Source: a virus
Virus record (IMG/VR): IMGVR_UViG_3300034630_000005
Location: 1-35,619 of that record
Direction: 5' to 3' (one strand)
DNA: 35,619 bases
In this document: piece by piece, positions 29,234 through 35,619 of the stretch
Layout of the letters: every line of letters begins with the position of its first letter
Position numbering within the stretch: position 1 is the first letter of the stretch
Notes under the pieces: generated by a model
What the model was told of the DNA's origin: nothing
The model's input: the letters and a program-made list of their open reading frames with translations, nothing else
The model's database searches: none
Translations under genes and position numbers: made by a program

Positions 29234-30400
29234 TCATGCTGCGATTTTTTCTTCCACTGGTACAAATTCCCCGCGCGCCGTTTCGTCCAGAACGATCAGA
29301 GCGTCTATCGCAGCATCAATGAGCGCGGTCCCGCACTTTTCAGCGTAGGTTGGCGCCTTCTTCATTGCCATGCCAATGGCCTTGGCGGTCGCATCGGTAA
29401 TCGCCATGTCAAGCACGAGGGCATGCTGGCCGAGATGCCGACGGAGATGTTCGACATAAGACATTGTCTCCACCTGCCGCGCGAAATCAGGCTCCCGACC
29501 AGCGGCGGCCGAAATCTCGCCGAGTGGCTTTGGTTTTTTCACCCCGCCGACCCACTGCGGTCCCGAAACCAGCCCATCAGGGCATCGTGTTGCCGGAATT
29601 GGGAGGCGGTCGAACGGGACCGAGCCGTCCACACCAAAACTGCGCAGAAGTTGTCGCCCCTCTTCAACGCCGAAACGGCCGAGCTTATCCTTTGCGTTTG
29701 GCTCTTCCCGCGGCAGGGGCGAATAGAAATCGCCGATGGCCGCCTCGCCTGAAAGAGGCTTCGAATACGGTTTCGCCGTCAACGGTGAGGCCACAGCTCC
29801 AGGAAGCTCCAGGTAGTCCAAGATTGCAGCGTCGGACCTGGTGGGCGACGCTCCACCCTTGACGCCGCGAGGACGTTCGACGGGGCGTAGCGACCTGCCC
29901 TTTCGCGTCTTGCCCCACTCAACCAGTCTCCCGTCGCGGAAAAGGAGATCGCCGAGCTGAGTATCAGTGCCGCCGTTCTTGTTCTTGTGGTGGCTCGGTG
30001 TGGAATCTTTCGGCTCATAGACGTTGACCATTTCGGCGGTGAACTGCCAACGGTCGCGGCCAATGACCTTCCAGCCGAGGGCGCCGAGGAGCTCCGCCTC
30101 TGACGGACGGATTTCGATGGTTGTCTCCGGATTGAGATCGTTTGGTTCTGGGGGATCAATTGCAGACCCAGGAAATGCCATGTTCTTCCAGTGGCGCAGG
30201 GCGAAGAGACGCCGATAGTCGCCGCGATGGGCAAGCCGTTCAAGTGCCGGCCACGCCAGTTGCTCGCGGGCCGGTCTGTTGTCGTTGGCTGGGGTGAGCA
30301 TCTTTGTCTTGGCCGGCGCTTGCTTTTTCTCGGCTGGTTGCGCTTGTGCGGCCAGGAGCGCGGACAATTGCGAAAGATCACGATGACGGGATTTCTTCAT
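29234..30400 (-). CDS. Large protein of unknown function in the replication region
   Basis: A 388-residue protein. The ATG at 30400 makes an ATGA overlap with the previous stop and has GGAG six bases upstream. Regions: a Lys/Ala-rich N-terminus with TPANDNRPA; a middle rich in Pro/Asp/Trp/Arg turns (FALRHWKNMAFPGSAIDPPE), including LLGALGWKVIGRDRWQFTAE; a C-terminal helical domain (SYVEHLRRHLGQHALVLDMA, then a CGTALIDAAIDALIVLDE helix). I recognise no family. Position next to the iteron region suggests replication or its control, but this is inference. Confidence 0.7.
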   Translation of the reverse strand: MKKSRHRDLSQLSALLAAQAQPAEKKQAPAKTKMLTPANDNRPAREQLAWPALERLAHRGDYRRLFALRHWKNMAFPGSAIDPPEPNDLNPETTIEIRPSEAELLGALGWKVIGRDRWQFTAEMVNVYEPKDSTPSHHKNKNGGTDTQLGDLLFRDGRLVEWGKTRKGRSLRPVERPRGVKGGASPTRSDAAILDYLELPGAVASPLTAKPYSKPLSGEAAIGDFYSPLPREEPNAKDKLGRFGVEEGRQLLRSFGVDGSVPFDRLPIPATRCPDGLVSGPQWVGGVKKPKPLGEISAAAGREPDFARQVETMSYVEHLRRHLGQHALVLDMAITDATAKAIGMAMKKAPTYAEKCGTALIDAAIDALIVLDETARGEFVPVEEKIAA

Positions 30401-30801
30401 GCTTTGCTCCATTTTGGCTTCGGGTCTGGAATGTCGCGGATGTCCTCCGACGCTTGGTTCAGGATGCCGGGTGGGAATTCCATGAGCAGCGCTGCCTTTT
30501 CGCGAGCCAGGCGGAAAGCTCTCAACCTCGCCTCTTCGGCTGCTGACCGGGTGACACATAGCGACAGGTCGTATTCAGACTGCCGTTTGATACGGTCCCG
30601 CTCGCTTTCGATTTCCTTGATCCGCAATTGAAGGGTTTCGATTACCAGATGCGCAGCCGCTAGGTGCGTGCGATAGTGTTCGCCTTGACGACGTGGATCC
30701 CTGGGCGCCGTCGAGTCTGCCACTGCTGTGCGCAGCGCCTCCTTGGCCAGCGCGCTTTCGCGCCGGGCGGATTGCTCGGCAGTTTTTATGCGGCGGCTCA
30801 T
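30397..30801 (-). CDS. Coiled-coil protein of unknown function
   Basis: A 134-residue basic protein from ATG 30801, which has a full AAGGAGGAA site. Mostly helical with a likely coiled coil (LVIETLQLRIKEIESERDRI) and a Pro-rich C-terminus (FPPGILNQASEDIRDIPDPK). Gene lies right beside the hairpin and iteron cluster, which forms its upstream region, so it may be regulated by, or bind, that DNA. No family recognised. Confidence 0.65.
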   Translation of the reverse strand: MSRRIKTAEQSARRESALAKEALRTAVADSTAPRDPRRQGEHYRTHLAAAHLVIETLQLRIKEIESERDRIKRQSEYDLSLCVTRSAAEEARLRAFRLAREKAALLMEFPPGILNQASEDIRDIPDPKPKWSKA

Positions 30802-30831
30802 GTGTTTCCTCCTTTTAGAGCGTGGGAGTAC

Positions 30832-30952
30832 CGCGGTGGCTTCCACCACCGCGAGGTGCTTCCACCTCGCAGGGGGTTATAGGGGGAGAGGTGGAACATG
30901 CGGTGGAAGGCGGTGGAAGGGTGGTGGAAGCGCGGTGGAACGTGCGGTGGAA
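30832..30952. repeat. Iteron array with hairpins, candidate phage replication origin
   Basis: Six direct copies of GGTGGAA begin at 30890, 30902, 30912, 30923, 30934 and 30946: spacings of 12, 10, 11, 11 and 12 bases, about one helical turn. Two inverted copies (TTCCACC at 30841 and 30860) lie in two overlapping, mutually exclusive hairpins: 30832-30853 (eight pairs) and 30851-30870 (GCGAGGTG-CTTC-CACCTCGC). All lie between the Prim-Pol/helicase stop and the next gene. The arrangement resembles iteron origins bound by an initiator; the function is inferred. Confidence 0.7.
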
Positions 30953-30955
30953 ATT

Positions 30956-33133
30956 TCATTCGTCGCCTTCCTTACGGCCGTAATCATCAGCGCTAACCAT
31001 CAATCTCTGTCTCGGCTTAGACGGAGGTCCGTCCCAAACAAGCTTGATGGTTCCGTCCTCGAGAAGTCGCTGCATGGCGCCCTCAAGTGCCTTCTTGGAA
31101 TGCCCCTCAGCGGCAGGGTGCTTTGCCATCTTGGCTGGCGCATAGTTCGTTCCCGCAGAGGCGCCCACATTCTGCCCTGTCCTTGAGAAGGTGCGGAGAA
31201 GTTCGATAAAGACCTTCTCCGCTTTGCGATTGATCAGCCCGATGGCCTGAGATGAACCTCCAGCGGGCTCTGCAACAAAACACCCGTGCTCCCAACGCAA
31301 CTTCGTCTCGTTTCCGACCTTGCCGTAGTTGATCTTTTTCGTGCTCAAGAGACGAATGTCGGGGTCAGCTTCCTTGTCGCCATCTGGGCGGCTGAAATAG
31401 AGTTGTGACCGCGAGCTATTCTTCCATCCAGTACTGCCGGACGAACCTGAGCCAGATCGAATGCCCTCCTGCGACGGGTGGGCAAGCAAGATGATCGAGC
31501 AATCGAGATCGATTGCCAGCCGTCTCAACATCCCGATGAACTGCCGCGCTTGCCCACGCTTGATTTCATCGCCACCAAAAAGATCAGCAACTGTATCGAG
31601 GACGATCAAGCGCGGCCGGAATTCACGAGCCAATTCGCAGAACTGTCGCCAGACCGCCGTTGGCAGCATGACGCCAGATTTATCTGGTATCGCAAGCAAG
31701 GCATCCGCATCGGCCATCGGGATAAGCCTAAAGTCCCCAAGGTCGGACAGTTGTCGCCCATGTCCACGAACGATGTCGACGAGGCGCCGATGGAATTCCT
31801 CCCCTTCATCTTCCGCGCCCAGATACAGAACCCTTCCCTGAGTCGGACTGTATCCTGCTGTGTCGACACCAAGCGCTGACGCAGCGCCGAACTGCAAAGC
31901 AAGTAGCGATTTCCCGACGCCGCCATCGCCAGCCAAGATTGTCACCTGCCGGTGAGGAACTAGCCCCTCAATAAACCACTCACGCTCTGGAACGGGCTGC
32001 CCGTGCCAGTTGACAGGGTTGACTACAGGCAGCGACGACGGTTCATCTGCGGCGTCCGCCGTCGGCTTGGTAGGTTCATTGTCATTGGCCGCCACAGGCG
32101 TTTTCTTGGCAAGCTCCCTGGCCACGAACGCCTCGACCTTGTCCGGGTCTATCGGCTGCGTGTCGTCATGCTGACGACCGCGATGCTTCTTGCCTATGGC
32201 CGACAAGTCAGCGCCGCCGTCTCGCGCGAGAACGGTTAGGGTGCCCATACCGATTCCCGCGCCTGCTTTAAAGGTTTTCCATTTTCTTGCTACCTCGCCC
32301 CTCTTGTACTTGGATCCGGTCGCGCTCCATGAGTCGGCGACGGCAAGCCCGCTCTCGCCGAGCTCCCCATGGACGGCCATCAGGGCATTAATCCAGTCCT
32401 GGTATCCGCACTCAGGGCTGATGTAGGAAAGCAGCTCCTCGACCTCGGCTGCCGAAACGTCATCGTTGCGCGGCATGGGTATAGTTGGGCTAGAAGTCGC
32501 CCTGTACCGCGGAGTGCGGATGACATCGACTAGCCAAGCCGGGGCCTCTGCAACGCCACCGATCGCCGCAATGAGGTCCGCAGGCGTGCCGCCTAGATAA
32601 TCGTACCGGCTCCCATCGGGGAACTCGCTGCCGGCGGCTATGACATATCCCCCTTGCGCGCGAATATCGATGTGTTCGGGAAGGCTGCCGGTTGATGTGG
32701 TCAGACCGTCGACGTGTCTAAAAAGGTAGTGGAATCCCCCCGTGGCTGTTTGGACGACAACGGTTCGCGGAAGCTGCGCGTGCTCGGCTTCCAGCGCGGC
32801 GAGATTGCGGTCGCCTGCCTTGCCTTCCTTGACGTCGACGTCCAGCGCGAAAAACCCTGTTTTCTCGCCCGTCGGGATGCCGACCAGAGCCTTAGGATTG
32901 CGGCGCCACCATTCACGAATGATGCGCTCATTCGTGCTCGCCCCGTATAGGCCATTTGATGTCAGCGGGCTCTTCGGGTCGTAGATCTCCCCAGTGTGTG
33001 GGTCTGTCTCTGTCCATGCCCTACAGGGAAATATGGGGATCCCCGCCGCGATGTATTCTAGCGCGACTGAAAGGTTGCCCGCGATCGTTGGAGTGTCTGA
33101 TTTAGGCTGAACGGCGACTGTGGTTGTCGGCAA
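30956..33133 (-). CDS. Bifunctional primase-polymerase / RepA-like helicase
   Basis: A 725-residue fusion. TTG start at 33133 with GGGAGG just upstream. Residues about 15-205: Prim-Pol domain with catalytic D98-V-D100 (FALDVDVKEG), TGGFHYLF, and HIDIRAQGGYVIAAGS. About 225-305: PriCT-like linker helices (YQDWINALMAVHGELGES, KYKRGEVARKWKTFK). About 395-600: RecA-type ATPase with Walker A GDGGVGKS (402-409), Walker B RLIVLDT with Asp513, then LLAHPSQEG and a SQLYFSRP segment. Role: replication initiation by priming and unwinding at the phage origin. Contains AANDNEPT at 349-356. It overlaps the preceding gene by 32 bases. Confidence 0.92.
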   Translation of the reverse strand: MPTTTVAVQPKSDTPTIAGNLSVALEYIAAGIPIFPCRAWTETDPHTGEIYDPKSPLTSNGLYGASTNERIIREWWRRNPKALVGIPTGEKTGFFALDVDVKEGKAGDRNLAALEAEHAQLPRTVVVQTATGGFHYLFRHVDGLTTSTGSLPEHIDIRAQGGYVIAAGSEFPDGSRYDYLGGTPADLIAAIGGVAEAPAWLVDVIRTPRYRATSSPTIPMPRNDDVSAAEVEELLSYISPECGYQDWINALMAVHGELGESGLAVADSWSATGSKYKRGEVARKWKTFKAGAGIGMGTLTVLARDGGADLSAIGKKHRGRQHDDTQPIDPDKVEAFVARELAKKTPVAANDNEPTKPTADAADEPSSLPVVNPVNWHGQPVPEREWFIEGLVPHRQVTILAGDGGVGKSLLALQFGAASALGVDTAGYSPTQGRVLYLGAEDEGEEFHRRLVDIVRGHGRQLSDLGDFRLIPMADADALLAIPDKSGVMLPTAVWRQFCELAREFRPRLIVLDTVADLFGGDEIKRGQARQFIGMLRRLAIDLDCSIILLAHPSQEGIRSGSGSSGSTGWKNSSRSQLYFSRPDGDKEADPDIRLLSTKKINYGKVGNETKLRWEHGCFVAEPAGGSSQAIGLINRKAEKVFIELLRTFSRTGQNVGASAGTNYAPAKMAKHPAAEGHSKKALEGAMQRLLEDGTIKLVWDGPPSKPRQRLMVSADDYGRKEGDE

Positions 33134-34058: not shown

Positions 34059-34262
34059 CTAGGCAACGCTTTTTTCGACCTCGGCTAGCCACTTATTGAG
34101 TGACGAGCGACGAGCGGCAACCGTACCACCGAGCTTGAAGCACGGTATGATGCGGTCATAGGAAAGGCGATAAGCTTGCCTCGGCTTAACACCCAAGTAG
34201 GCGGCAATGGCGTTTGCCCCCATCAGCAGATCGCCCTCAGAATTATCGTTCGCTGCTTTCAT
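34059..34262 (-). CDS. AlpA/Xis-like DNA-binding protein, first early gene
   Basis: A 67-residue protein with an AGGAGG site directly upstream. The sequence GANAIAAYLGVKPRQAYRLS and then IPCFKLGGTVAARRSSLNKW form the standard helix-turn-helix and wing of AlpA/excisionase-type proteins. It opens the leftward early operon opposite the integrase, so a recombination directionality factor or switch protein is the best guess. Residues 5-7 are NDN. Confidence 0.8.
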   Translation of the reverse strand: MKAANDNSEGDLLMGANAIAAYLGVKPRQAYRLSYDRIIPCFKLGGTVAARRSSLNKWLAEVEKSVA

Positions 34263-34443: not shown

Positions 34444-35619
34444 GTGGCGGTAATCAAGCGAAGGAAGTGGACAAACGGCAGCGGCGAGCATGTCGCCTGG
34501 CAACTCGACTTCACCGACCGTTTCGGGAAACGCCATCGAGAACAGTTCGCCTTGAAGCGCGACGCCGAGGGCCGTTTGGCGGAACTTCAGGGAACAACGC
34601 GTGCCGGCACCTACCGCCCCCTCGCCGATCGATCTGACGTGGCAGAAGGATGCAAGGTGTTCTGCCAGTACATGACCGACCGTCGTGACCGCGGGGAAAA
34701 AGTCACAGAAACGTATTTGCGGACGACACGCCAACACTGCGAAAATTATATCGATCCGAATGGTGAATACGTTGTGCGCCGACCAGGACTAAAGAAGAAA
34801 GACTCTATCGGCTTCAAGGGCGGGCTAGGCGCAATCAAGTTGGCTGACCTTACAGCGGCACGCGTCGTGAAGTTCCGCGACGACATGCGAAAACACGGCG
34901 CAGGCATCGTCACGACTAGGCGCGTCTTAGGAACCCTATCCCGCGTCCTGAAGCATGCCGTGGAAACAGATATGGCAACGATGAACGTGGCGAAGGGAGT
35001 CCGTGTAATCGGAACCCGAGACGAAGACTCTGAGCGCGTCACGCCTCCATCCAAAGCTGACCTCACGGCGCTGCTGAAGGCCGCCTCCCCTGATTACAAG
35101 ATACGGGTTCAGTTTGCCGCCACTACTGGGCTGCGCGCATCGGAACAATGGGCGCTGCGGTGGAGCAACATCGACCTCGATACAGGAAAGGTAACTGTCG
35201 ATTCACGCGTCGATGCATTTGGAAGCATCGACAAAACGAAATCAGCGGCCGGCAAGCGAACCATCCCTATCGGCAAGACGATGATCGAAGAGCTAAAAGC
35301 GTGGCGAGACCGCTCGAAACAAAAATCCAACGACGGCTTTGTCTTCCCTGATGGTCGCGGGAGCTTCACAAGGCACACGAATCAGACGAAGCGCTTCTGG
35401 AATCCGCTGGTCAAAGCTGCCGGAATTGAGCCCATTGGCTGGCATGCTCTCCGCCATTTTGCTGTCAGCACGTGGATCGAAGCCGGGCTGCAGCCAAAGG
35501 CGGTCCAAACACTCGCCGGTCACGCATCATTCGCGATCACAATGAACCGCTATGGCCACCTGTTCCCGTCTGACGACCATCAAGCAGCATTTGACAAGAT
35601 CGCTGCAACTTTGGCATAG
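34444..35619 (+). CDS. int: Tyrosine recombinase / phage integrase
   Basis: A 391-residue protein from GTG 34444 with AGGAGG five bases upstream. An N-terminal Arm-type DNA-binding domain (about 1-50), a SAM-like core-binding domain (about 65-180), and the catalytic domain: Arg231 (TTGLRASEQWALRW), Lys266 (KTKSAAGKR), His334 and Arg337 (HALRH), His360 (LAGHASF) and the nucleophile Tyr370 (MNRYGHL). All five residues are intact. It integrates and, with a directionality factor, excises the phage. It closes the window, so any attachment site should lie beyond 35619 or in the control region. Confidence 0.96.
   Translation: MAVIKRRKWTNGSGEHVAWQLDFTDRFGKRHREQFALKRDAEGRLAELQGTTRAGTYRPLADRSDVAEGCKVFCQYMTDRRDRGEKVTETYLRTTRQHCENYIDPNGEYVVRRPGLKKKDSIGFKGGLGAIKLADLTAARVVKFRDDMRKHGAGIVTTRRVLGTLSRVLKHAVETDMATMNVAKGVRVIGTRDEDSERVTPPSKADLTALLKAASPDYKIRVQFAATTGLRASEQWALRWSNIDLDTGKVTVDSRVDAFGSIDKTKSAAGKRTIPIGKTMIEELKAWRDRSKQKSNDGFVFPDGRGSFTRHTNQTKRFWNPLVKAAGIEPIGWHALRHFAVSTWIEAGLQPKAVQTLAGHASFAITMNRYGHLFPSDDHQAAFDKIAATLA

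Follow-up and report, generated by a model that had tools for sequence, protein, structure and literature searches.

A candidate iteron-type replication origin behind a Prim-Pol/helicase gene in a probable temperate phage and its relatives

Layout of the locus

The analysed stretch of DNA (hereafter the window; 35,619 nt) comprises positions 1-35,619 of the IMG/VR record IMGVR_UViG_3300034630_000005. This 35.6-kb virus carries genes for an integrase, a terminase and a portal protein (Pfam, PHROGs), and is therefore probably a temperate phage. The record starts with an ATG (position 1) and ends with the stop codon of the integrase gene (position 35619); this makes it a probable provirus that was cut back to gene boundaries and lacks attachment sites.

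The element examined here (positions 30832-30952) occupies a 154-bp gap between the stop codon of a gene encoding a 725-aa Prim-Pol/helicase, the proposed initiator, helicase and primase, and the start of the next gene (Table 1). The latter encodes a 134-aa protein with no match in Pfam or PHROGs and is preceded by a Shine-Dalgarno-like site (30808-30812). Read along the helicase gene, the stop codon is followed by six TTCCACC repeats, the core CCCCCTATAACCCCC, hairpin 1 and hairpin 2.

Table 1. Features of the locus in the window
Feature	Position	Strand	Basis or remark
Next gene, 134-aa hypothetical protein	30397..30801	-	far edge of the element
Hairpin 2, CGCGGTGG(TGGAAG)CCACCGCG	30832..30853	-	inverted iteron spans stem and loop
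Hairpin 1, GCGAGGTG(GAAG)CACCTCGC	30851..30870	-	inverted iteron spans stem and loop
Core, CCCCCTATAACCCCC	30872..30886	-	single copy in the 35,619-nt window and in the 5.2-Mb genome of relative L122; conserved in the family
Six direct iterons, GGTGGAA (TTCCACC along the gene)	30890..30952	+	motif count, Tandem Repeats Finder, family comparison
Prim-Pol/helicase stop codon	30956-30958	-	
Prim-Pol / PriCT_2 / RepA-type (AAA_25) helicase / C-terminal winged helix, 725 aa	30959..33133	-	Pfam, PHROGs, fold, sequence profile
Winged-helix domain (residues ~631-713), proposed iteron reader	30995..31243	-	AlphaFold2 models, winged-helix fold matches, column test

The preliminary description of six GGTGGAA repeats spaced by about one helical turn, with two inverted copies, filling the gap beside the replication gene, was confirmed. 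On the plus strand the repeats start at 30890, 30902, 30912, 30923, 30934 and 30946 (spacings of 12, 10, 11, 11 and 12 bp), and the two inverted copies (minus strand) occupy 30841-30847 and 30860-30866. The first TTCCACC begins 3 nt past the helicase stop codon, i.e. directly downstream, as in the SaPI type of arrangement, and several direct repeats at roughly helical spacing beside a replication gene are what is expected of an iteron-type origin. Tandem Repeats Finder called the array independently.

The window holds 14 GGTGGAA matches (3.8 expected), a number reached in none of 100 shuffles. When the gap was shuffled 5000 times with its dinucleotides preserved, GGTGGAA occurred at most twice, and any 7-mer reached six copies in only five shuffles, which excludes chance. 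It is scarcely credible that the array arose by chance or belongs to a coding repeat; although open frames do cross it (e.g. 30822-30983 on the plus strand), it is conserved without a conserved frame, and any frame is broken because the spacings are not multiples of three and vary between relatives.

The preliminary description did not include the core (GGGGGTTATAGGGGG at 30872-30886), a GC-rich sequence of the form CCCCC-TATAA-CCCCC (C5-TATA-C5), which is apparently undescribed. A literature search with the iteron and core strings, with subscription journals mostly outside its reach, returned nothing relevant on an iteron-core-hairpin element. No AT-rich melting region was found, the GC skew was uninformative, and a search of the window for exact matches revealed no DnaA box (TTWTNCACA), the feature expected of a classical DnaA-assisted plasmid origin.

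The two hairpins had been proposed to form a mutually exclusive switch, which did not hold in that form. At full length they share just 2-3 bp, they fold side by side in the minimum-energy structure of the DNA, and in the relative L126 they are two separate tandem hairpins; they are therefore not intrinsically exclusive. For several relatives the optimal fold was predicted to contain a different, outer stem enclosing hairpin 2, and a second conformation of this kind is possible. The segment after the core folded better than its shuffles (mean z -2.8; z < -2 in 36 of 45 loci). RNAalifold found no consensus in a MAFFT alignment of the hairpins, probably because the arm lengths differ, and the comparison across relatives was made by folding each locus separately.

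The good folding of the transcript (z -4.5) and the ability of TTCCACC to pair with the inverted copies would also suit an element acting as RNA, i.e. a structured 3' untranslated region, terminator or attenuator between the helicase gene and the next gene. We regard this as very unlikely, given that (i) no terminator-like site lies inside the element, (ii) Rfam gave nothing above chance (its one sub-threshold match lies outside the element), and (iii) neither the one-turn spacing nor the coupling of the iterons to a predicted DNA-binding domain (see below) is expected of RNA.

Distribution of the element

The closest relative was found in Ferirhizobium litorale (L122); its protein is 60% identical, and the array and its spacings are the same. 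DNA identity between the two loci reaches 95% in the gap and 87% in the helicase part (70% at third codon positions), whereas the Prim-Pol half is only 63% and the next gene 67% identical. This pattern argues that the helicase, the winged helix and the element form one conserved block.

A scan of viral contigs with the whole 725-aa protein gave no match, and with an alignment of the helicase plus winged helix as query 50 viral loci were recovered. Dozens of phages and prophages show the iteron-core-hairpin layout just after the stop codon of their helicase gene. Among full-length loci fetched by protein, the distance from the stop codon to the core is at most 250 nt in 26 of 27, as against none of 725 control windows with a core; the sole exception (L153) has CCCTTATACCC in its place. 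The Prim-Pol part appears to be exchangeable: that half has diverged strongly from L122, and no Prim-Pol match was found in L106, L088, L146 and L141, which may use a host primase.

The conservation also bears on whether the element is an operator or copy-control site, bound by the winged helix and serving the replication operon or the next gene, with the origin elsewhere. Such a role would fit a site that immediately precedes the next gene, itself read from the same strand, and iteron initiators often repress their own operons too. However, the element stands behind the helicase gene and not in front of it, and a search of 30300-31400 gave no promoter-like site. Moreover, an operator would need neither the invariant core nor the hairpins, both of which recur where the next gene of the relatives begins differently. 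We therefore consider an operator improbable.

Several relatives depart from this layout. L139, L141, L143 and L144 have a longer element, in which a second array lies past a segment like AAGTCGTTGAAATGATTGATG; their hairpins differ and lack inverted iterons. Downstream of the more distant homologues of Azospirillum and Wolbachia phage WO there is no clear copy of the element. In Rhizobium phage 16-3, another distant relative (gene p101, L404:4619-4900; 29.5% identity), the p101 stop codon is directly followed by GCGTGACAA repeats in both orientations. Several records (L106, L128, L129, L130, L131 and L134) are just 15-18 kb long and could be satellites or trimmed proviruses; L106, by appearance, contains an integrase, a helicase of the Prim-Pol/helicase type and capsid-region genes.

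Scans with DNA patterns alone led to the same type of gene. The core by itself yielded 190 usable sites, 25 of which had flanking iterons and an inverted copy, compared with 3 of 954 control windows (the core pattern and the iteron classes were set after the data had been seen; the same rules were applied to the controls, and none of the counts in this study is blind). Of 12 such loci that were examined, 10 matched the helicase profile clearly, the 3' end of the match preceding the core by 70-152 bp or slightly more; the remaining two (L321 and L355) may be due to chance. L282 gave a weak profile match, with no helicase ending beside the core in that test. The scan with the iteron pattern also reached helicases of the same type. 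In a control scan, the reversed motif AAGGTGG gave one helicase-linked array versus five for GGTGGAA, and this one locus (L496) itself has phased repeats behind its helicase.

Other arrangements were encountered in these scans. L358, L372 and L299 retain the core, with ATTGGCGGA-type repeats after it rather than before. Genes for other phage helicases or primase-helicases also have phased GGTGGAA arrays next to them, some in both orientations (L115:1078-1127, L046:6654-6682, L016:5461-5498, L012:1562-1588, L003:8137-8165), which may reflect either common descent or convergence. Arrays with 10-13 bp spacing also occur inside open frames (L055:7515-7545, L058:9233-9260, L069:3134-3161, L070:1827-1868); on reading, the frames of L055, L058 and L070 look to us like replication proteins reminiscent of lambda O, which we take as an impression.

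Iteron classes and their putative reader

The 45 loci fall into 18 iteron classes (TTCCACC, TTCCAAC, TTCAGAC and others), and 79% of the 209 intervals between iterons measure 9-13 bp. The inverted copies match the direct iterons of their own locus in 41 of 45 cases, whereas only 32% of pairs taken from different classes match. When each class was represented by a single locus, the score for this agreement was 77, compared with a permutation mean of 11.6 (p<=5e-5).

The AlphaFold2 model of the helicase plus C-terminus (pLDDT 89.7) had its best structural matches in RSF1010 RepA (1nlf, 1olo, 1g8y), which the sequence profile also selected (E 4.9e-19); together with AAA_25 in Pfam, this identifies the helicase as RepA-type. 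The RSF1010 RepA match stops short of the C-terminal domain, a predicted winged helix. A profile of that domain found no relative among PDB sequences, and its fold matches are generic winged helices only.

The columns of the protein alignment were compared with the iteron class in 30 close relatives, relatedness being handled just by comparison with all other columns. The best predictors are three neighbouring residues of the winged helix, 661-663. Residue 661 separates TTCCACC from other iterons in 97% and residue 663 in 93% of the sequences, while the next-ranked columns reach 80%; residue 662 has the highest mutual information with the iteron class. In the model, residues 661-663 lie in the loop before the second helix of the domain and at the start of that helix. 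Two loci suggest that the iteron class follows the winged helix or residues 661-663, and not the ATPase domain. The ATPase of L134 is nearest to that of L127, a TTCCACC member, whereas its winged helix is nearer to L137, with which it shares the iteron. The winged helix of L146 is overall nearest to L137/L138, yet this locus has TTCCACC iterons and the matching residues 661-663. On the ATPase tree, which is weakly supported, the iteron classes are intermixed, with seven changes.

This coupling also bears on a site for another phage or host protein, such as an excisionase, a repressor or a packaging or recombination factor. The phage does encode an excisionase-like HTH protein (34059-34262) and a terminase. 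However, some 3 kb separate the element from the small terminase gene, the element accompanies relatives of the Prim-Pol/helicase in diverse phages, and the iteron class tracks residues of the helicase, all of which leaves such a site only a slim chance.

The element is thus very probably a replication origin, as first proposed. The layout conserved behind homologous helicases, the co-variation of inverted and direct iterons, and the iteron class that tracks winged-helix residues strongly support this proposal, and point to the neighbouring Prim-Pol/helicase itself as the most likely initiator. The further suggestion of plasmid-like maintenance was not borne out, as integrase, terminase and portal genes are present and no partition gene was found among the annotated proteins.

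Comparison with known origins and a possible mode of action

In the SaPI Rep and SCCmec Cch2 systems, the short iterons bound by the C-terminal domain of the helicase follow immediately after the helicase gene, and the helicases are of the DUF927 and D5/Primase_Cterm types (PMC7581432). Short iterons likewise lie directly behind the helicase gene here, as putative binding sites of its winged helix. The differences are an RSF1010 RepA-type helicase fused to a Prim-Pol (the only significant Pfam matches are Prim-Pol, PriCT_2 and AAA_25, none of the SaPI helicase classes), the C5-TATA-C5 core and the inverted-iteron hairpins.

The alpha protein of phage P4, a primase-helicase with a Toprim primase, binds origin repeats via a winged helix (PMC4234260). 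The present protein resembles it as a primase-helicase with a winged helix as proposed reader of origin repeats, and differs in its Prim-Pol and its helicase class. The P4 origin contains, to our knowledge, no core of the C5-TATA-C5 type.

The oriV of RSF1010 (IncQ) combines iterons with stem-loops (ssiA, ssiB) at which the primase starts, and is served by three separate proteins, RepA, RepB' and RepC, the last of which reads the iterons (PMC4234260). The helicase type and the combination of iterons with stem-loops are shared, whereas here the iterons are about 11 bp apart and the winged helix is fused to the helicase, so that Prim-Pol, helicase and winged helix occupy one 725-aa frame in place of separate RepB' and RepC. 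ORF904 of the Sulfolobus plasmid pRN1 also unites Prim-Pol, helicase and winged helix, and its gene is closely followed by a stem-loop origin; its helicase belongs to SF3 and there are no iterons (PMC4234260). The single protein and the downstream origin candidate are alike, in contrast to the AAA_25/RepA helicase and the iterons found here instead of an SF3 helicase and a large stem-loop. Primase-ATPase-winged helix fusions have been noted earlier as proposed origin binders (PMC5862659).

Because its helicase is of the class of RSF1010 RepA, the protein is not a member of the SaPI, P4 alpha or pRN1 families; what it appears to share with them is the mode, in which the helicase carries a DNA-binding domain and the origin adjoins the helicase gene. 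We consider it highly probable that the element is an origin whose iterons are recognised by the winged helix of the adjacent helicase, in a mode like that of SaPI, P4 alpha and pRN1, with another class of helicase and an apparently undescribed core.

In such an origin, the TTCCACC iterons would be read by the C-terminal winged helix. With their spacing of about one helical turn, on the same face of the DNA, the direct iterons could gather several RepA-type subunits for ring assembly, and the inverted iterons across the core would take up subunits in the opposite orientation. The loaded helicase would then melt the DNA, at a guess at or near the CCCCC-TATAA-CCCCC core. The hairpins would be exposed in single-stranded form, and the fused Prim-Pol might make the first primers, conceivably there; priming at the hairpins by the same protein would not be general, because several members have no recognisable Prim-Pol.

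A bolder proposal, which we put forward tentatively and at somewhat less than even chances, is that of an undescribed class of phage origin run by one polypeptide. The winged helices of one RepA-type ring would sit on the (about six) direct iterons and those of a second set on the inverted iterons, loading the helicase on either side of the core without a separate loader or DnaA, while residues 661-663 would re-code the specificity, keeping apart the origins of related phages and small phage-like elements.

A helicase stop codon followed at once by iterons, a C5-TATA-C5 core and hairpins is a signature that locates probable origins in many unannotated phages and prophages. The loci also provide a natural series of protein-DNA pairs, in which it may be followed how an initiator changes its recognition sequence, and they suggest that initiator, helicase and primase, which are separate in RSF1010, can be joined in one protein.
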